From contig NZ_LT699743.1 in NCBI RefSeq assembly GCF_900155365.1, positions 124,001 through 188,000 of the forward strand: a stretch of 64,000 nucleotides of DNA, given 5' to 3'. Made by a program: the position numbers and the translations under genes. The notes under the pieces were generated by a model. It ran no database searches. It was not told the DNA's origin and was given only the letters and a program-made list of their open reading frames with translations. Source of the DNA: Collinsella bouchesdurhonensis. GTDB lineage: Bacteria; Actinomycetota; Coriobacteriia; Coriobacteriales; Coriobacteriaceae. This document shows, in pieces, positions 6,585-64,000 of this stretch. The stretch's first letter is position 1. Each line of letters begins with the position of its first letter.

Positions 6585-7205
6585 TTAGGCCATACGGATG
6601 GCGACCAGGCCATTCTTGCCACCGGGCACAGCGCCCTTGACAAGGATGAGGTTCTGCTCGGCATCGATGCGGACAACGGTGAGGTTCTTCACGGTAACGC
6701 GCTCGTTACCCATGTGACCAGCCATCTTGACGCCCTTGAGGACGCGGGCAGGATAGGCGCACTGGCCAATGGAGCCCGGATGACGCTGGAAGTGCGAACC
6801 GTGGGTCATAGGACCGCGGCGCTGACCCCAGCGCTTAATGCGACCCTGGAAGCCCTTACCCTTGGAGGTACCGATGACGTCGACCTTAGCGACATCGGCG
6901 AAGTCTGCGACGGTGACGACGTCGCCAACCTTGTGCTCCTCGGCAGAAGCAACGCGAACCTCACGAAGGTAACGAACAGGCTCGACGCCGGCCTTGGCAA
7001 AGTGACCAGCCATGGGCTTGTTCACGTGCTTGGCCTTGATATCGCCGAAACCGATCTGGACGGCATTGTAGCCGTCGGTCGCCTCAGATTTAACCTGCGA
7101 GACGGTGCAGGGGCCAGCCTGGATGACCGTGACGGGAACGACGTTGTCGTTCTCGTCCCAAACCTGGGTCATGCCAATCTTGCGGCCGAGAATCATGCTG
7201 ATCAT
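6585..7205 (-). CDS. rplC: 50S ribosomal protein L3
   Basis: A 206-residue L3, a primary assembly protein near the peptidyl transferase centre. Seen: 'ILGRKIGMTQVWDE' at the start and 'RRGPMTHGSHFQRHPGSIG' in the central loop. An upstream in-frame extension of 47 codons exists but runs through the leader. The ATG at 7205 is chosen because GGAG lies eight bases before it. It is the first gene of the S10-type unit here, because rpsJ lies apart behind fusA. Confidence 0.97.
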   Translation of the reverse strand: MISMILGRKIGMTQVWDENDNVVPVTVIQAGPCTVSQVKSEATDGYNAVQIGFGDIKAKHVNKPMAGHFAKAGVEPVRYLREVRVASAEEHKVGDVVTVADFADVAKVDVIGTSKGKGFQGRIKRWGQRRGPMTHGSHFQRHPGSIGQCAYPARVLKGVKMAGHMGNERVTVKNLTVVRIDAEQNLILVKGAVPGGKNGLVAIRMA

Positions 7206-7240
7206 GTACGATCTCCAACTCTCGGTGGTCTTGGGACAAT

Positions 7241-7261
7241 GTGAACGCCCCTTGCGTTCAC
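7241..7261 (-). promoter_or_regulatory. Hairpin in the leader of rplC
   Basis: GTGAACGC and GCGTTCAC form a perfect 8-bp stem with a 5-base loop in the untranslated leader, about 35 bases before the rplC start. No U-run follows, so it is not an intrinsic terminator. It may be a protein-binding or stability element. Confidence 0.55.
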
Positions 7262-7389
7262 CCCTAGAGGACCACAACTGATACACGCGGTTGTCGACTT
7301 CGAATTCACCAAAACCCAAGCTCAGGCAGCAACCCTTGATGCCCAAACATGCGATAGGCAGAATCCTCCCTCGACGCGCACAGTTGTTT

Positions 7390-7416
7390 AGTATACACAG
7401 GTATGCGCGTCTTCAA
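7390..7416 (-). promoter_or_regulatory. Candidate promoter of the rplC-rplX operon
   Basis: On the minus strand TATACT (7390-7395) lies 15 bases downstream of TTGAAG (7411-7416). A -35 box GCTTGA at 17 bases is the alternative. It lies in the roughly 330-base gap between the phosphatase gene and rplC and would give a leader of about 175 bases. Confidence 0.5.
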
Positions 7417-50943: not shown

Positions 50944-51627
50944 TTACGCCTCCAGAACACGTTGAATGAGTACGGCATTCACATAGGTATCCAAAACGGG
51001 ATTCACGTGGTCGCTCAGCTGGCGCCGCAGCCCGTCACGCAAACACCTGAGTGTAGACAGCGAATAGCTTTGAATCTCACAGACATAATAACCAATCGAA
51101 GAGATGAGTTTTGGCTGCGTTATCGATCCCCTCACATGCTGCGCCGTCGCGGGAAGTTCGCTCTGTGCGATATCGAGCATACTTCGCAGCGTACCCTCGA
51201 TCTCGTCGAGCACGCAGCGTTTAACCGGCGAAGGAGCCTCCAGACGCCCCGACCAATCGCGCGCAAACGCCACGGGATCGGTCGCCTCCATCATGCGTGC
51301 GTACTTCTCGCGAATCACATTGCGGCCCGCCGCATCGGCAGCCACCACGTCATCGCGCACGGCCATGATGGACTCGCGAGGAAAACTCAGGTACTGGGCA
51401 ACGCGATGAACAAAGAACCCCACCGCGTCGTCTTGGCAGGCGGCGCGTCCACTCATACCCTGAACGGTGTCGAAATGTACCCATTCAAGCTGCACGAGCT
51501 CCCGCAATGCAGAGATTTCCGCATGAGCAAGGCCCTTGTCTTCGAGCAACTTCTCGACCGCCGGCATGCTGAAAAACGCCGACATGCCTTGTCGAAGTGC
51601 GGAGCATGACGTCCTGCAATCTCCCAA
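50944..51627 (-). CDS. DUF4125-family protein
   Basis: A 227-residue protein of the DUF4125 type. It is mostly helical, with 'WVHFDTVQGMSGRAACQDD' near the N-terminus, the region most typical of the family. No catalytic motif is known. The frame is open to 51675, overlapping DUF4037, but the TTG at 51627 is preferred because AGGGGG lies six bases before it and it follows the DUF4037 stop closely. DUF4125 usually neighbours or is fused to DUF4037, as here. Confidence 0.7.
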   Translation of the reverse strand: MGDCRTSCSALRQGMSAFFSMPAVEKLLEDKGLAHAEISALRELVQLEWVHFDTVQGMSGRAACQDDAVGFFVHRVAQYLSFPRESIMAVRDDVVAADAAGRNVIREKYARMMEATDPVAFARDWSGRLEAPSPVKRCVLDEIEGTLRSMLDIAQSELPATAQHVRGSITQPKLISSIGYYVCEIQSYSLSTLRCLRDGLRRQLSDHVNPVLDTYVNAVLIQRVLEA

Positions 51628-51637
51628 TGCCAACCCC

Positions 51638-52570
51638 CTATCGATATCTGCCGGCCGCAAGCGGACAGGCAGCAAGATACGGATCTCTCAATGAACCCTG
51701 GATGTCCAAGGCAACATCGAGCAAAAAGTCACTGCCGCACGACGTCCAGCCAGCCAAGCGGGCAGATGCGCCAACCGCCTGGCAAAGCGCCTCGACGTCA
51801 TCTTGATCCACCTGTTCCACCGGCGCCGCGGCGATGGAACGTACGGCATCGAGCACCGGCGCAGGCGCGCACGCGCGCTCGGCAAGTGAACGATACGCCC
51901 ACTTGTAGTACGGCATGTACGTATGCGCAAGCAGATGAAACGCCGCCATGGTGCTCGTCAAAAACTCACTGCGTGCCGCGCTGGCAGCGACGGCATCTTT
52001 GCGCTTAAGGCAGCGCGGAAGGTTGTACTGCCCCGCTTGCGCCATGGATGCGCAGTGGGCGGCGAACTTCTTGCGCATAACCTCATCTGGATAAAATCCC
52101 TGGTACACCACGCGCAAAGCGGAGAACTCGCCACTCGGATCAGCAAAAACCTCGCCGGAGGTAACCTGAGCGAGAAGCTGCTCGGGAATGGCGAGCCACT
52201 CCTTTGCGCACTGTGGTGCACGAGAAAGACCGGTGTAGAGACGGTAGAACGCCTGCGTTTCAAAGACGCCCACGCGCTTGCCCGCCATCTGCGTCTGCTG
52301 GCGCGTGAAACCCTTAAAACTTACAGGCAAAAGGTCGTAGCGGCGCTGAAGCTCCGACCCCCACTCCTCACACACATCGGTAGGAAGCCACACGCAGAAG
52401 CCGGGACCGAAGTCGTGGTCGCGCGAAATCTCGTCGTCGAAGCCCAGGCATTCCGACCCCTCTCCAACGAGGCCCAGCGCGGCGCGGTAACGGACGTCGC
52501 TCGGCAGCCCTTCGAATAGGGACGGCGCATAGAACTCACAATATGAACGAGAAAGCTCAAGACCTGTCAC
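51638..52570 (-). CDS. DUF4037 protein with nucleotidyltransferase-like motif
   Basis: A 310-residue protein. Residues 36-58 hold 'GEGSECLGFDDEISRDHDFG', which resembles the GS-x-DxD signature of the nucleotidyltransferase fold, so a nucleotide transfer activity is possible. GTG start 39 bases after the aldehyde dehydrogenase stop, within the operon. With DUF4125 it forms a pair whose role in microcompartment loci is not known to me. Confidence 0.72.
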   Translation of the reverse strand: MTGLELSRSYCEFYAPSLFEGLPSDVRYRAALGLVGEGSECLGFDDEISRDHDFGPGFCVWLPTDVCEEWGSELQRRYDLLPVSFKGFTRQQTQMAGKRVGVFETQAFYRLYTGLSRAPQCAKEWLAIPEQLLAQVTSGEVFADPSGEFSALRVVYQGFYPDEVMRKKFAAHCASMAQAGQYNLPRCLKRKDAVAASAARSEFLTSTMAAFHLLAHTYMPYYKWAYRSLAERACAPAPVLDAVRSIAAAPVEQVDQDDVEALCQAVGASARLAGWTSCGSDFLLDVALDIQGSLRDPYLAACPLAAGRYR

Positions 52571-52609: not shown

Positions 52610-54247
52610 CTAGATGCCCTTGAAGGCATTCGTGAGCTCGTGAATCATCTTCTGGAGCTCGTCGGCGTCGATGACGTCGTTGGGCTTGGCGCCTGCAAGA
52701 GCGTCGGGAGATACGTCGGTGCAGTTGCAACCCACCGAGTAGCTGATGCCCGAGACCGGATGGAGCTTCGAGTCACAGCAGCCCGTAGCGGACACGGCAT
52801 CACAGCAACCGGCACTGGAAGCTGCAGCCTCGGTATGATGCGCCGCCAGGTCGGGATGCCACTTGGCAAACAGCTCGTCGTGAGCCACAACCTCGTCGGG
52901 CTCGATCAGGCCGTTGACCACGCGCTTCACGTTGATGAGATGCTGCGGGCCCACGTTCTCGGAAACGGAGCTGCCGCCCCAGGTGCCGCAGCCCAGCGTG
53001 AGCGCGACGTCAAGACCGGTGATGACACCCGTACCGCCCTGGGATCCGCCGGTGTTCACTAGGATGCGGGAAGCCGGCTTGACGGAGAACTTGCGCACCA
53101 TGTCCTTATCGGTGGTGTGGATGCTCATGGTGTGGCCGATGCCATTTTGCAGCAGCTCGATGGAGAGCTCGCAGGCCTCTTCCCAGTTGGAGACGGTATA
53201 GAAGCCCAAAACAGTGGTGAGCTTCTCGTAGGACAGCGGCCAGGCATCGCCCACGCCGTGCTGCTCGCCAATAAGCACACGAGTGCCCTCGGGGATCGTG
53301 ATACCAGCCGCCTGCGCGATCGACTGCGGACTGTGGCCCACGAACTTGGGGCTCATGGAGTGACCGTTGCGGAAGAGCAGAGCGCAAACCTTCTTGCACT
53401 CCTCCTCGGTCATGAAGTAGCCGCCCTGAGCGCGGAACTCGGCCATCACGGCATCGCGGTTGCAGGTCTCGCAGATGACGCTCTGCTCGGAAGCGCAAAT
53501 CGTGCCGTAGTCAAACGTCTTGGAGGCAAGGATGCGACGGACGGCGTCGTGCACGTTGGCGCTGCGCTCGATATAGGCAGGTGAGTTGCCAGCGCCCACG
53601 CCCAGCGCGGGCTTGCCGGAGCTGTAGGCAGCCTTGACCATGCCGGGGCCGCCGGTAGCGATGATCATGGCAACCTCGGGAGCATGCATGAGCTCGTTGG
53701 TGGCAGCCATGGAGGAAAGCGTGATGCCCTGGATCACGTTCTCGGGGGCACCCGCCTCGACAGCCGCCTGGTTCATGAGCTGGATGGCCATGCCCGTGCA
53801 CTTGGCGGCAGCGGGGTGCGGCGAAAAGACGATAGAGTTGCGCGCCTTGAGGGCGATCATCGCCTTGTAGATGACCGTAGAGGTGGGGTTGGTGGAGGGA
53901 ACGATGCCCATCAGCAGACCAACCGGCTCGGCGATGGAGATGACCTGGTTCTTCTCGTCGGCATCGATAACGCCGATGGTCTTCTTGTCGCGGATCTCCT
54001 CATAGAGCAAGGCGCTGGCGATATGGTTCTTGTACACCTTGTCGCAAACCTTGCCAAAGCCCGTCTCCTCGACAGCCATGCTGGCGAGCACCTGGGCGTT
54101 TTCCTCGGCAACCTTCACCATGTTACGGAGGATGCGGTCGATCTGCTCCTCGTCGTAATGAGCAAGCTGGTTCGCAGCGATCTTACCCTTGCGGGCGAGG
54201 TCGCGAACCGCTTGGATGCTCTGGAGATCGAAATCGTAGTCCTGCAT
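52610..54247 (-). CDS. CoA-acylating acetaldehyde dehydrogenase (EutE family) with Cys-rich linker and C-terminal targeting helix
   Basis: A 545-residue protein that turns acetaldehyde, CoA and NAD into acetyl-CoA. The catalytic Cys251 lies in 'GTICASEQS' and the NAD loop in 'IVPSTNPTSTV'. After residue 475 an unusual tail begins, with CC pairs at 481-482 and 490-491 and a CxC at 507-509. It ends in an amphipathic helix, 'DADELQKMIHELTNAFKGI', at 527-545, which looks like an encapsulation peptide. In GRM2-type loci this enzyme carries such a peptide at its end. AAAGGAG precedes the ATG. Confidence 0.9.
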   Translation of the reverse strand: MQDYDFDLQSIQAVRDLARKGKIAANQLAHYDEEQIDRILRNMVKVAEENAQVLASMAVEETGFGKVCDKVYKNHIASALLYEEIRDKKTIGVIDADEKNQVISIAEPVGLLMGIVPSTNPTSTVIYKAMIALKARNSIVFSPHPAAAKCTGMAIQLMNQAAVEAGAPENVIQGITLSSMAATNELMHAPEVAMIIATGGPGMVKAAYSSGKPALGVGAGNSPAYIERSANVHDAVRRILASKTFDYGTICASEQSVICETCNRDAVMAEFRAQGGYFMTEEECKKVCALLFRNGHSMSPKFVGHSPQSIAQAAGITIPEGTRVLIGEQHGVGDAWPLSYEKLTTVLGFYTVSNWEEACELSIELLQNGIGHTMSIHTTDKDMVRKFSVKPASRILVNTGGSQGGTGVITGLDVALTLGCGTWGGSSVSENVGPQHLINVKRVVNGLIEPDEVVAHDELFAKWHPDLAAHHTEAAASSAGCCDAVSATGCCDSKLHPVSGISYSVGCNCTDVSPDALAGAKPNDVIDADELQKMIHELTNAFKGI

Positions 54248-54296: not shown

Positions 54297-54995
<699 letters not shown>

Positions 54996-55002
54996 GACTT
55001 AC

Positions 55003-55701
<699 letters not shown>

Positions 55702-56023: not shown

Positions 56024-56941
56024 CTACTTGATGATCTCTACAACAGAACCGTTTTTAATACCGAAGGCATTTGCCTCTTCGGTGTCGATATGACAATCGA
56101 GGGCGCTCGTGTTGTTTGCGCGCACGACCACGTTGTCAAGACGTCCGCCGCGCTCGCCGCCAAAAGCGATCGACACGACCTGGCCGTCATGAAGCCCGCG
56201 CTTGGCAGCCTCGTCGCACGTCATATGAATATGACGCGCAGCAACGATGACACCTTGGGGCAGGGCAACGGTGCCATGGGGGCCGGCGAGTGTGATGCCC
56301 GGCGTGCCCTCAAGCTTGCCGCTCATGCGCACGCAGGCAGGAATGCCCAGCTTGAACGTATCGCCGCGCAGCACCTCAACCTGAGTGGACGGGCGCACGG
56401 GACCAAGCACGCGCACGCGCTCGATAACACCCTTGGGACCCACAAGCGTCACCGTCTCTTTGGCGGCAAACTGTCCAGGCTGGGAGAGCTCCTTGATGGG
56501 AGTGAGCTCGTAGCCGGCTCCAAACAGAGCCTCAAGGTCCTCCTGGGACAGATGGACATGACGACCGGACACGCCAACGCTCACCTTCAACGGGGCGGCA
56601 TGCCCAAGAAGATCCTCAACCTGCTGTTCGCTCCAAATGCCGGTGTCCAGAGCGCCGCGAATAAGGCGCTCGATCTCCTCGGCACTCATAGCGGCCTCGT
56701 GCTCCTCGTGCTCCTTGTGATGCTCGGGCTCGTGGGCAACAGGTGCCTCGTGATGCTCGGGTGCAGGCTCAGCCGCCTTGTGCTGCGTCGCTGCGGGCGC
56801 GGCGCCAAAGACCAGCTCGACGCCCAACTCGGCAGCTTCATCTTTGGCCTGCGGGGTCACGATGGTGTTGTCATCGATCGTCAGCACGCCATCATGCTCC
56901 GCTGCCGCCTTCACGTCTGCTGCACTGATCAGTCGTTTCAT
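56024..56941 (-). CDS. pduL: PduL-type phosphate acetyltransferase with EutQ-like N-terminal module and His-rich linker
   Basis: A 305-residue protein. Residues 1-45 ('MKRLISAADVKAAAEHDG', 'NTIVTPQAKDEAAELGV') resemble the N-terminal module of EutQ/EutT-like proteins. Residues about 55-82 are rich in His and Glu. 'SAEEIERLIRGAL' at about 85-97 looks like an encapsulation helix. The PduL barrels follow, with the zinc-binding 'GVSGRHVHLS' and 'ARHIHMTCDEA'. It makes acetyl-phosphate from acetyl-CoA and returns CoA inside the shell, leading to ATP through acetate kinase. AGGAAG-type site precedes the ATG. Confidence 0.93.
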   Translation of the reverse strand: MKRLISAADVKAAAEHDGVLTIDDNTIVTPQAKDEAAELGVELVFGAAPAATQHKAAEPAPEHHEAPVAHEPEHHKEHEEHEAAMSAEEIERLIRGALDTGIWSEQQVEDLLGHAAPLKVSVGVSGRHVHLSQEDLEALFGAGYELTPIKELSQPGQFAAKETVTLVGPKGVIERVRVLGPVRPSTQVEVLRGDTFKLGIPACVRMSGKLEGTPGITLAGPHGTVALPQGVIVAARHIHMTCDEAAKRGLHDGQVVSIAFGGERGGRLDNVVVRANNTSALDCHIDTEEANAFGIKNGSVVEIIK

Positions 56942-59801: not shown

Positions 59802-60749
59802 CTAGTGCCGAACGAGGTTGACCTTGAAGTCCGCCTCGGAGATCCAGCCCTCGATACGATTCAGGTCGTCCTCCGAAAGCGACGGGTCGCCTTCGATCTC
59901 GTAGTCACGGCCGAGCTGCGCGTACTTGCCCACACCCAGCTTGTGATAGGGCAGCAGGTCCACGCCGTCGAAGTTCTTTTGATAGCGATACGGCGTGAAG
60001 AACTCGATCATGGCGTCGATCTCGGCCTTGTCGTCGTTCACCCCGTGGAGCAGCGGCATGCGCACGCGCACGTTAAAGCCGTTTTCCAGCAGGGCGCGGA
60101 TGTTGGCGAGAATCTGCTCGTTGTTCACGCCGGTCCACTGCTTGTGCTTGATCGGGTCCATCTGCTTGATGTCGAACAAGAACAGATCCACGTAGCGCGC
60201 GATATCGAGGATCGTTTCGGTCTTGGTGTAACCGCACGTCTCGATTGCCGTGTGGTAGTCGCGGTCCTTACAGGCCGCAAGCAGGGCGCGGGCGGCCTCG
60301 GGCTGTGCCAAGACCTCACCGCCGCCCAGGGTCACGCCGCCGCCGGACATACGGTAGAAGTCCGCATCCTGGTCCATGAACGAAACCAGGTCGCAGATCT
60401 TGCGGTCCTCGCCCATGATGGAAAGCGCCTTTTGCAGGCAGGCCTTCTCACAGGTGCCGCAGCCCAGGCACTGCTTGGTACGGTCCACCACATGCTCGCC
60501 GTTGGCGAACTGGTGAACCCCTGCGGGGCACGCCTCGACGCACGCCCCGCAGTTCACGCAAGCAGTCTGCTTGAACATGACCTCAAAACCACGACGCTGG
60601 CTCTCGGGATTGGAGCACCACTTGCAGCGCAGAGGGCATCCCTTGAAGAACGCGATGGAGCGAATGCCCGGGCCGTCGTACATGTTGTACTTCTGCGTAT
60701 TGAAGATGCGCGCGCGGCGCTCGAGGCTCTCTTCCAGCTGCTCGCTCAT
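59802..60749 (-). CDS. cutD: Choline TMA-lyase-activating radical SAM enzyme
   Basis: A 315-residue glycyl-radical-enzyme activase. The radical SAM cluster 'CPLRCKWC' lies in 'FFKGCPLRCKWCSNPES'. It is followed by two ferredoxin-type clusters, 'CVNCGACVEACPAG' and 'CLGCGTCEKAC', as in PFL2-type activases. It cleaves SAM and places the radical on Gly819 of CutC. ATG at 60749 has AAGGAGG before it; the upstream extension of 11 codons is not needed. 55 bases after cutC. Confidence 0.95.
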   Translation of the reverse strand: MSEQLEESLERRARIFNTQKYNMYDGPGIRSIAFFKGCPLRCKWCSNPESQRRGFEVMFKQTACVNCGACVEACPAGVHQFANGEHVVDRTKQCLGCGTCEKACLQKALSIMGEDRKICDLVSFMDQDADFYRMSGGGVTLGGGEVLAQPEAARALLAACKDRDYHTAIETCGYTKTETILDIARYVDLFLFDIKQMDPIKHKQWTGVNNEQILANIRALLENGFNVRVRMPLLHGVNDDKAEIDAMIEFFTPYRYQKNFDGVDLLPYHKLGVGKYAQLGRDYEIEGDPSLSEDDLNRIEGWISEADFKVNLVRH

Positions 60750-60804
60750 ATGCGTCCTCCTTTCTGTTGGGGTTACGCCCATTTGGGCTTGAGTGGTTAC
60801 GTGC

Positions 60805-63339
60805 TTAGAGCTTGGTCAGCATCGTGCGGCTGATGATCTCATCCTGAACGTCCTTGCACAGCTCGACGAAGAACGCGCTGTAGCCGGCGACGCGAACCAC
60901 AAGGTCGCGGTGCTCCTCGGGGTGAGCCTGAGCGTCGAGCAGCGTCTGGTTATCCAGGTAGTTGAACTGCATCTCGCCGTTGCCGTACATGCAGGCGGTG
61001 CGCAGAAGCGTGACCAGGCCGTTTTCGCCCTCGGGGGTATCCAGCAGGCCGGCCATGAGCTTGAAGTTGTGCACCATGCCGATGTTCATGCTGTCGTTGC
61101 TCATCTTGGAGACCGACTTGATGATGGCGGTGGGGCCATTGTGGTCAGCACCCTGGGTGGGGCTGATGCCGTCGGACAGCGGCGTCCAAGCCTTGCGGCC
61201 GTTGGCAGAAGCACCGGTCATCTGGCCAAACGGGGTGTTGTTGGAGATGGACAGCGTGCCGTGGGACAGGCGCGAGTACAGGGTCTTGAACTGGCTGTGG
61301 ATATGCTCGGTGAAGTAGACGATGTCCGCCACGAACTGATCGGCGTAGTCGTCGTCATTACCGTACTTGGGGGCGTCCAGGCAGTCCTGACGCATCTTCT
61401 CATAGCCCTCGAAATCGGCCTTGAGGCCCTCGTTGAGCTCGCATAGCGTGTACTTGTGGTCGTCGAAGACGAGCTTCTTGATAGCGGCCATGGAGTCGGC
61501 ATAGGTAGCAAGACCGCTCCACACAACACCGGGTCCAAAGTTGTACATGGCGCCGCCGGCAGAGACGTCCTTGCCAGACTCCATGCAGCCCTCGAACATG
61601 ATGGACATGAGGGGCTTAGGAGCCATGTCGCGATGCACGCGCTGCGAGATCACCGTCATGACGCTCGTCCACTTGGTGATGTAGTAGATGGTGCTCTTGA
61701 CCGCAGCCTCGAACTCCTCAAAGGTGTGATACTGGTCGAGGTCGCCCAGATCAGGGGTAACCTGCTTGCCATACCACAGGGGCACGCCGTGGTTGAGCGT
61801 GAGCTCGATGGCGATGGGCCACTGGGTGTAGGAGGTGGAGGTCCACTGATACAGGCGGCCGGACTTCTGCGGCTCGACGCAACCCATCATGCAGTAGTCG
61901 CGTGCGTCCTCAACAGAAACGCCCTTGGCAAGCATCATCTTGATATGCGTGTCGTCAAAGTGGCAAGCAGGGAAGCCCATGCCGGAGCGAACAACGTCGA
62001 CGATCTTGCGCAGGTACTTCTCGGGGCTCTTGTTGTGAATACGGCAGGCCAGGGAAGGCTGGTAGATCTTGACGTGACGCACGGCGTCCATCAGCAGATA
62101 GGTGAGGTCGTTGGTGGCATCGGCGCCGGAGCGGGTCACGCCGCCGAGCGTCATGTTGACGAACGGCTGATAGCCGGCGAAGAACTTGGAAGCGTCCTCG
62201 GAGGTAGCCCACATCATCTCGCTCATCTTGATGAGCATGCAGCCGGCGATATCAAAGGCCTGGTAGTCGGTCAGGCGGCCAGCCTCTTTGTCGGCCTTGT
62301 AGAAGGGATACATATACTGGTCAACGCGGCCGATGGACATACCGGTCTGGTTCTCCTCGAGCGGCAGCAGGCTCTCGACAACCCATACGGACTGCACGGC
62401 CTCCCAGAAGGTGCGCGGCTTGTGGGCAGGCACGTTCTTGAGGTTTTCGCAGATCTGCAGGAGCTCGGCGCGGCGCTTGGGATCGCTGCACTCCTGGGCC
62501 TTCTGGCAAGCGAAGTCGGAGAGACGGCGGGCGTAAATCATAACGCCCTCGGTGGTGTCGATGACGGACTTGTAGAAGTAGATCTTGTCCAGATCATCGG
62601 GGTTTGCATAGTCGAGGTGCCTGAGGTGCTCGCGAGCCTCGTCCTGAATGTCCTGCATGCCCTTCTTCATCAGGATGACGTCGTAGCCGGGGTTGGAGTC
62701 GCCGCCACCGTTCACCTGGTGATAGGAGCAGTCGGAAACAAAGGACTCACCGGAGAGCTCCCAGCCGCCGCACTCGCGGTACTGGTCCTCGCAGACCTCG
62801 TCGAGCGACTTGCCCTCCCAGAACGGGAAGAGCTCCTCGCGCATGTACTTCTTGTCCTCTTCGGAGATGTAGAAGGGGTCCTGAGCGCGCGTGCCAATGG
62901 TGTCGAGCTCGTCGCGCAGCCAACGCCAGGCGATATCGGGCGAGAAGGCGCCGGCGCGCGGAGCACCCGTGGGGTTGCCGACGATAAGCTCGTCGTCCTG
63001 GATGATCAGCGGAGCGGTCTCGCAGCAATAGCGGAAGCACTTGGCGCGCAGCTCGATCTTGGGCATGCCCGGGTTCTTACGGGTGAACTCGGTGACGGCG
63101 CGAGCGCGGAAGGTGGTGATGGAGGGAACCTGCTTGAGGAAGTTCTGCTTCAGGCGAACGTGGCGCTCGGTGGGGCCGTTGGGCACCTCGGTGCACTCGG
63201 TGTGGGCAACGGTGCTGTCCAGCGGACGGTCGAGCTGGTCGGCGACCTTGGTGAACATCGCGCGAACGTTTGCGCGCTGCTCTTCGCTCATGTCCTTGGT
63301 GGCATCGGACAGTTGCTTGGCAAACTCTTGAATATCCAT
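60805..63339 (-). CDS. cutC: Choline trimethylamine-lyase, glycyl radical enzyme
   Basis: An 844-residue glycyl radical enzyme that splits choline into trimethylamine and acetaldehyde. The residues that mark choline lyases are all present: Asp214 in '[10 protein letters not shown]', Cys487 and Glu489 in 'MMGCVEPQ', and the radical Gly819 in 'RVAGYSAFF'. These sit two residues before the numbering known for the Desulfovibrio enzyme (D216, C489, E491, G821). The length is normal, without the long N-terminal extension of the type II form. GAAAAGGAGT-type ribosome site precedes the ATG. cutD follows. Confidence 0.97.
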
Positions 63340-63355: not shown

Positions 63356-64000
63356 CTAATCGGTCATGTTTTTAAGCAGGCTTGCAAACCATGTGTTGTC
63401 CTGCGAGGCAACTTCTGTTGCAGGCTGCTGTTCGGTCATATGTGCGACGATCTTCCGATCCGGCACCCGGTTGAGACCCGCTTCCTCGAGAAGAGAGAGG
63501 TCAGAAGACTCGAGGCTGCACCCAACCTGGCGCCGGCGGAGAAAGTCGCGATAGGTCACACCCAGATTCGAGGTCGTCGCGCTTTCCCAGCCGGTAACGG
63601 TGAGGGTCTTGGGCAGCGTGGAATGGCAGCCGGTAGCTCCCATGCCGGTGCCCACGTTCACGAGGATGCGTCCCACCGGCTTCTTGAGCACAAACTGGCG
63701 AACAACTTCGCCATCGCGCGAAAAGATCGAAAGCGCGTTTCCCGAGCCGCTGTTCAAGATCAGCTCGATGCACTTCTCGCAGGCGTCACGCCAGTTCTCC
63801 TCCACGTAGTAAGACAGCACGGGGCCGTACTTAGTGCGCGAGAAAAAGCTGCGCTCGGAGACATAGGGCTTTTCGGCCACGAGCACGCGCGTAGAGGCAG
63901 GAACCGCGATGTTGGCACGACGAGCCAGGTCGCACGCCGATTTACCAATGAGCTCACGGTAGGTGCGCCCGTCCTCGCGAAAACACACGTGGTAAAGACG
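63356..64000 (-). CDS. EutE-family aldehyde dehydrogenase, C-terminal part, cut by the window end
   Basis: The frame is open to the last base, so the 5' part including the catalytic Cys lies outside. About 214 residues are visible. They match the C-terminal half of CoA-acylating aldehyde dehydrogenases ('[15 protein letters not shown]', '[18 protein letters not shown]'). It differs clearly from the enzyme at 52610 and ends '[11 protein letters not shown]', perhaps a short targeting helix. It directly precedes cutC by 16 bases, the place of cutB in described choline clusters. Confidence 0.8.

Follow-up and report, generated by a model that had tools for sequence, protein, structure and literature searches.

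Collinsella bouchesdurhonensis carries a choline microcompartment locus whose acetaldehyde dehydrogenase, CutF, has six cysteines crowded between its enzyme domain and its C-terminal helix region. Is the linker that holds them a mere spacer, or does it carry an element for docking or metal binding? The locus was analyzed in a stretch of 64,000 nucleotides (assembly GCF_900155365.1, contig NZ_LT699743.1, positions 124,001 to 188,000), called the window below, and CutF was compared with its homologues. According to excerpts of PMC12339742, the linkers that join cargo enzymes to their encapsulation helices are disordered and show little conservation. In the Coriobacteriales examined, we found a nine-residue motif in the CutF linker that has stayed as constant as the enzyme, whereas the rest of the linker, CC pairs included, has drifted. 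These results suggest that the tail serves for docking or metal binding and is more than a spacer.

The choline microcompartment locus

The main features are given in Table 1. In addition to CutC and CutD, PduL and EutJ exceeded their curated cut-offs, Pfam matches were obtained for the BMC shell genes and for an iron-type alcohol dehydrogenase, and the EutP- and EutN-like genes matched those annotated in E. raffinosus. A MerR-type regulator scored 229 bits against the choline activator model, below the cut-off of 450. Of 12 Coriobacteriales loci, 11, that of the window genome among them, encode a second aldehyde dehydrogenase (AldDH) with Pro in place of the catalytic Cys, as does E. raffinosus; the G228 contig, which holds the twelfth locus, stops short of this gene. 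A CDHTPV element in the tail of the second AldDH is common to 7 of the 11.

AldDH pseudoenzymes have already been described for GRM1 by Axen et al. (2014; excerpts of PMC4207490), where GRM1 is placed mainly in Firmicutes, with some Deltaproteobacteria and Olsenella uli, the catalytic Cys of its second AldDH is changed to Ser or Pro, and GRM2 is found only in Gammaproteobacteria. The window locus shares with GRM1, as far as those excerpts describe it, CutC, CutD, two AldDHs (one without the catalytic Cys), PduL, EutJ-, EutP- and EutN-like genes, and BMC shell genes. The long GRM2-type N-terminus of CutC is absent: the window protein has 844 aa, with the family model starting at residue 56, and the cutC gene of K. 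pneumoniae has 3387 bases. With CutC and CutD over their cut-offs and a changed catalytic Cys in the second AldDH, the locus fits GRM1 by the criteria of Axen et al. Because of this Pro, and because Olsenella uli belongs to the class, we assign the locus to GRM1 and give up the GRM2 label of the initial annotation. The Coriobacteriales Cut proteins branch among those of Firmicutes GRM1, and a transfer of the locus has been suggested (excerpts of PMC6620236).

Two tandem BMC shell genes (54297-54995 and 55003-55701, minus strand) are nearly identical (99%), and the pair looks like a recent duplication. Their products have N-terminal extensions of ~140 residues that are rich in Lys, Ala, and Pro and contain no Cys. 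On the other side of cutF lie genes for DUF4037 and DUF4125 proteins. A sequence search of the PDB gave nothing for DUF4125 and one chance-level match for DUF4037. In genome G171 (L079), this pair lies near an ORF that reads as a second glycyl radical gene.

Table 1. Features of the CutF tail and the choline locus in the window (coordinates of the 64,000-nucleotide stretch)
Feature	Position	Strand	Evidence or remark
Genes for DUF4125 and DUF4037 proteins, immediately downstream of cutF	50944-51675 and 51638-52570	-	Domain matches
cutF-type acylating acetaldehyde dehydrogenase, 545 aa	52610..54247	-	TIGR02518, PF00171; enzyme domain, residues 1-467
CutF C-terminal helix region, putative encapsulation peptide, residues 523-545	52613..52681	-	0.70 mean identity, 14 homologues
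Variable CutF linker, residues 468-522, six Cys and three His	52682..52846	-	Composition over 14 homologous linkers
SGISYSVGCNC, residues 499-509	52721..52753	-	Family form S[GP]I[STG]YS[VAL]GC plus Cys within +1 to +3
Two CC pairs, Cys 481/482 and 490/491	52775..52807	-	Positions not conserved in homologues
PduL-type phosphotransacylase, His-rich linker before PTAC domain	56024..56941	-	PF06130; NF011652 over cut-off; possible metal-ligand partner
CutD activating enzyme	59802..60782	-	TIGR04395, 527 bits, cut-off 360
CutC choline trimethylamine-lyase, signature enzyme of the locus	60805..63339	-	TIGR04394, 1630 bits, cut-off 1050
Second aldehyde dehydrogenase, upstream of cutC	63356-64000 and beyond (L003:1432-2928)	-	Pro at catalytic Cys position

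A conserved motif within a drifting linker

CutF scored 722 bits against TIGR02518 (acetylating acetaldehyde dehydrogenase; cut-off 620.1), which places it in this family, and the match stops at residue 461. Cys251, in FDYGTICASEQS, is by its position the presumed catalytic Cys. The last 78 residues consist of the linker (468-522) and the C-terminal helix region (523-545). These 23 C-terminal residues are conserved; a putative helix at 528-542 appears only in a predicted model whose mean pLDDT of 31 (two sequences, the window protein and that of locus L006) makes it unusable, and its amphipathicity was judged by eye. A sequence search of the PDB with the linker returned nothing similar. Most simply, the linker would be a tether, assumed to be disordered, that holds one embedded linear motif.

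The initial annotation had reported Cys residues arranged as CC, CC, and CxC between the enzyme and the helix, and the translation bears this out: Cys481, 482, 490, 491, 507, and 509 lie within 29 residues (52807-52721, minus strand, inside the segment 52613-52819, residues 477-545, that had been singled out). The linker has the top Cys density among 16,416 30-residue segments in 50 ORFs, which were picked by a GC3 heuristic and have a Cys background of 1.57% over 17,866 aa; at this background, the binomial chance of at least six Cys in 29 residues is 5e-6 per place. None of the other ORFs among the 50 reached six Cys per 30 residues, and five were reached in the ferredoxin part of CutD and at the start of ORF 6588-7412.

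Full-length CutF homologues with the tail were identified in 14 genomes of the order, from nine genera and 72-79% identical to the query. In the family of the window genome (65 genomes), the window genome and the same-genus G042 (79%) have a full-length CutF, and G017 has a 54% match without the tail. The family of G205 has full-length homologues in 12 of 140 genomes, and the CutF of Atopobium fossor is identical to that of G263. An AldDH match was present in 94 genomes of the class; tails were read for the 17 of 396 class genomes that exceed the TIGR02518 cut-off, and the rest are mostly ORFs near 850-1000 aa. Among the 17, a long tail with the motif is present in 14 and lacking in G017, G379, and G271. 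We take the order of these relatives from A. fossor and from general taxonomy. The 14 homologues include two near-identical pairs and, because they are related, do not amount to 14 independent observations. Relatives from outside the order come from plasmid-collection records only, with Firmicutes GRM1 represented by one species (E. raffinosus). The same-genus AldDH of G017 (L007), which lacks the motif, has three Cys within a linker of 17 residues.

S[GP]I[STG]YS[VAL]GC occurs in all 14 Coriobacteriales CutF proteins examined, and another Cys always lies one to three residues after it. Compared pair by pair, the proteins have a mean identity of 0.89 in the nine residues of the motif and 0.86 in the enzyme; the linker falls to 0.33 on one side of the motif and 0.19 on the other, and the helix region stands at 0.70. 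At identical residues, synonymous codons differ in 37% of pairs in the motif and 36% in the enzyme. Since the codons vary as in the enzyme, the identity of the motif is old, not a product of recent copying, and is best explained by selection. The distance from the motif Cys to the helix region also varies little (12-17 residues in the 14 homologues).

The reading of the initial annotation had been made to depend on conservation of the Cys residues in close homologues, and the linker divides on this point. C507 and a second Cys at +1 to +3 are each kept in 14 of 14, whereas C481/482 and C490/491 are not: conserved CC pairs were rejected, as the alignment of the 14 proteins gave them no positional counterparts, even in G042. 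Upstream of the motif, a single Cys is present in G042, and both g51 species (G263 and G253) lack Cys there and carry four and five His. The total number of linker Cys is two in two of the homologues. A four-Cys Fe-S or Zn site on each chain was likewise rejected, since Cys at fixed spacing are absent, with only C507 invariant and the second Cys floating between +1 and +3. As judged from the alignment, the CC pairs here are best read as probable local elaborations within a ligand-rich linker, with no fixed site.

None of 11 other AldDH relatives has the motif, namely the three same-order TIGR02518 proteins (G017, G379, and G271), the E. raffinosus GRM1 CutF (64%), two GRM2 CutF proteins, and five EUT-type or similar ones. 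The earlier statement that EutE-type linkers are Pro/Ala/Gly-rich holds only in part: with linkers delimited by a fixed cut, those of five EUT-type or similar relatives have 2-12 residues, and in six other relatives the P+A+G fraction is 0.21-0.53.

A DNA pattern built from the 14 motifs matched 18 places in the 396 class genomes, 14 of them in cutF and four elsewhere. The reversed control pattern likewise matched 18 places; because the two numbers are equal, a pattern match alone means nothing, and what counts is the fixed place in cutF. With a looser pattern in the 14 genomes, 25 places were found among the matches listed, 14 in cutF and 11 elsewhere. The strict motif was not found in other ORFs of at least 60 aa in 12 neighbourhoods, which rules out the strict form as an element common to another cargo or shell gene there; the shorter string YS.GC turned up in two other small ORFs of these neighbourhoods. 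Viral contigs contained five DNA-pattern matches, each with a stop within the motif frame, as well as two distant AldDH loci, and gave no match to the E. raffinosus query. A search of genome contigs with six exact peptides, which says little on other phyla, matched A. fossor alone.

The window locus differs from the E. raffinosus GRM1 locus, which lacks the motif, and the open-licence excerpts consulted name neither a Cys motif in a CutF linker nor Cys/His-rich linkers for GRM1. The motif may have arisen in Coriobacteriales or arrived with a transferred locus.

Docking as a proposed role for the motif

The conserved residues of the motif are S, I, Y, S, G, and C, and thus extend beyond the thiols. 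A bare thiol site would not require the conserved I, Y, and G. Selection acting on I, Y, S, and G besides Cys suggests that a protein recognises the motif and that the thiols belong to the contact. We give about an even chance to the motif being a lineage-specific linear docking element for a partner inside the organelle, with its thiols in a metal or disulfide contact. The motif would bind this partner, either a shell tile or another cargo enzyme, within the compartment, and a CutF tetramer showing four such tails would cross-link the core. More tentatively, the two thiols of the motif, aided by nearby Cys and His, might secure the contact via a metal or a disulfide. It counts against docking that, among ORFs of at least 60 aa in the 12 neighbourhoods, the strict motif is confined to cutF. 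The N-terminus of CutC was considered as the partner and set aside: it is alike in E. raffinosus, which lacks the motif, and showed no specific change by eye.

Parallels are found in two known systems. In the GRM2 of K. pneumoniae (Kalnins et al. 2020; excerpts of PMC6971018), CutF has an EP-like C-terminus, yet it co-migrates with shells only in the presence of CutC with its N-terminal domain; a CutF analogue is tetrameric, and CutF has been proposed to cross-link the core. This protein and the window CutF are alike in having an EP-like C-terminal helix (putative in the window protein) on a long linker that bears a short shared element. The elements themselves differ, being SILDD.RF/DDRF in K. 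pneumoniae and SxIxYSxGC in Coriobacteriales; the linkers of K. pneumoniae and P. mirabilis CutF (L038 and L039, two sequences) have SILDD.RF and a second DDRF in common and are different in the rest. The CutC proteins also differ, since an N-terminal part of ~326 residues is needed for CutF co-migration in K. pneumoniae (excerpts of PMC6971018), whereas in the window CutC the family model is preceded by 55 residues.

The second parallel is CsoS2 (excerpts of PMC11365436), whose disordered middle region binds the shell through Tyr and through (V/I)(T/S)G motifs and contains paired Cys that may stabilise it. Like CsoS2, CutF belongs to an organelle and combines a conserved Tyr with two Cys in a stretch assumed to be disordered. 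CsoS2 is a dedicated scaffold whose seven repeats contain (V/I)(T/S)G triplets, whereas CutF carries one copy on an enzyme; reading the 14 CutF linkers revealed one motif copy per linker and no such triplets eight residues apart. Both parallels are analogies that imply no kinship and serve as precedents for docking. Other Cys-based parts of microcompartments, the Fe-S shell proteins PduT and GrpU (excerpts of PMC6325248) and the Cys-rich domain of PduK (excerpts of PMC12058022), belong to shell proteins, whereas the Cys of CutF sit in a cargo linker.

Cysteine- and histidine-rich linkers and the other explanations

The main rival of docking, which could be combined with it, is metal handling: the Cys/His-rich CutF linkers and the His/Cys-rich PduL linkers would bind Zn or Fe in the lumen, as a reserve for metalloenzymes or as a bridge joining the two consecutive CoA enzymes. 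We consider this possible but on the unlikely side. In the 14 CutF linkers (842 residues), Cys makes up 8.1% and His 5.3%, compared with 2.0% and 2.8% in the enzyme part. Every one of these linkers has at least five Cys plus His. Upstream of the motif, Cys was observed at 7.3% versus 2.4% expected from codon-position base composition, a threefold excess. The window PduL linker has 8 His and 9 Glu in 41 residues, and pooled PduL linkers (9 of 12 loci parsed, 313 residues) contain 12.1% His and 4.2% Cys. Two other tails from these loci, used for comparison, are poorer in both residues and show no clear enrichment when pooled: the pseudo-AldDH tails (9 loci) have 2.5% Cys and 3.7% His, and the BMC N-extension (5 copies) has no Cys and 1.6% His; these tails and the PduL linkers were picked by regular expressions, and loci that did not fit were left out. 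The joint Cys/His enrichment, seen in CutF and in pooled PduL linkers, would mildly favour metal binding by the CutF linker. Nevertheless, the number and spacing of the ligands vary widely (2-7 Cys per CutF linker), the weakest PduL linker, that of G201, has one His and two Cys in 39 residues, and four Cys occur in one pseudo-AldDH tail, that of G042. When 11 further BMC AldDH linkers are pooled, they too are slightly above background in Cys (8 in 258 residues, 3.1%; His 1.6%). All these percentages come from related genomes, and the binomial values for the PduL linkers and the comparison tails overstate significance. Moreover, metal handling leaves the conserved I, Y, S, and G unexplained, and its significance figures ignore kinship.

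A special form combines both ideas, with the Cys-rich CutF tail, bearing SxIxYSxGC, and the His-rich PduL tail making a metal-bridged, sequence-specific joint of the two consecutive CoA enzymes inside the shell. This joint appears improbable to us; if true, it would represent a metal-dependent code for cargo assembly apart from the encapsulation helix.

We regard a redox role of the linker thiols, which would form inter-subunit disulfides or scavenge oxidant or aldehyde and thereby stabilise the cargo core or protect the glycyl radical, as quite improbable. CC, CxC, and CxxC arrangements are present, as such a role would have it, but two species have no Cys upstream of the motif, and the hosts are presumably anaerobic, which also counts against it. 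In addition, Cys mutants of CsoS2 grew normally in air (excerpts of PMC11365436).

Very little credence is due to the linker being a drifting low-complexity sequence without function, in which Cys are incidental. The CC pairs and most flanking residues are indeed not conserved, and the DNA pattern matched no more often than its reversed control. However, the motif is conserved like the enzyme with varied codons and always lies at the same place in cutF, which contradicts this explanation for the motif, and the threefold excess of Cys in the upstream linker also speaks against it.

The pattern GS...DHD marks a nucleotidyltransferase and, in the DUF4037 proteins, is intact in 11 of 12 loci. DUF4037 has been grouped with the C-terminal domains of aminoglycoside nucleotidyltransferases in a paper that cites a nucleotidyltransferase-HEPN protein adenylylating a Tyr (excerpts of PMC3710099), and the DUF4037/DUF4125 pair is named in the limonene operon of a glycyl-radical pathway (excerpts of PMC12583861). 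It is possible that the pair is a glycyl-radical accessory. That the DUF4037 protein, a predicted nucleotidyltransferase, modifies Tyr503 and switches tail docking has only a faint probability: its ORF begins 39 bases after cutF in the window, and DUF4037 occurs in 13 of 14 motif genomes versus 2 of 16 others searched, but G164 retains SPISYSVGC with no DUF4037 match, and the pair, lying near other glycyl-radical genes, may serve the radical enzyme instead.

Docking by the motif is the reading we retain, at the strength given above. With a motif in its linker preserved as well as the enzyme itself, the cargo would have a second, lineage-specific address or joint. The finding also offers a defined target of 11 residues for studying what holds together the core enzymes of an organelle that degrades choline and produces trimethylamine.
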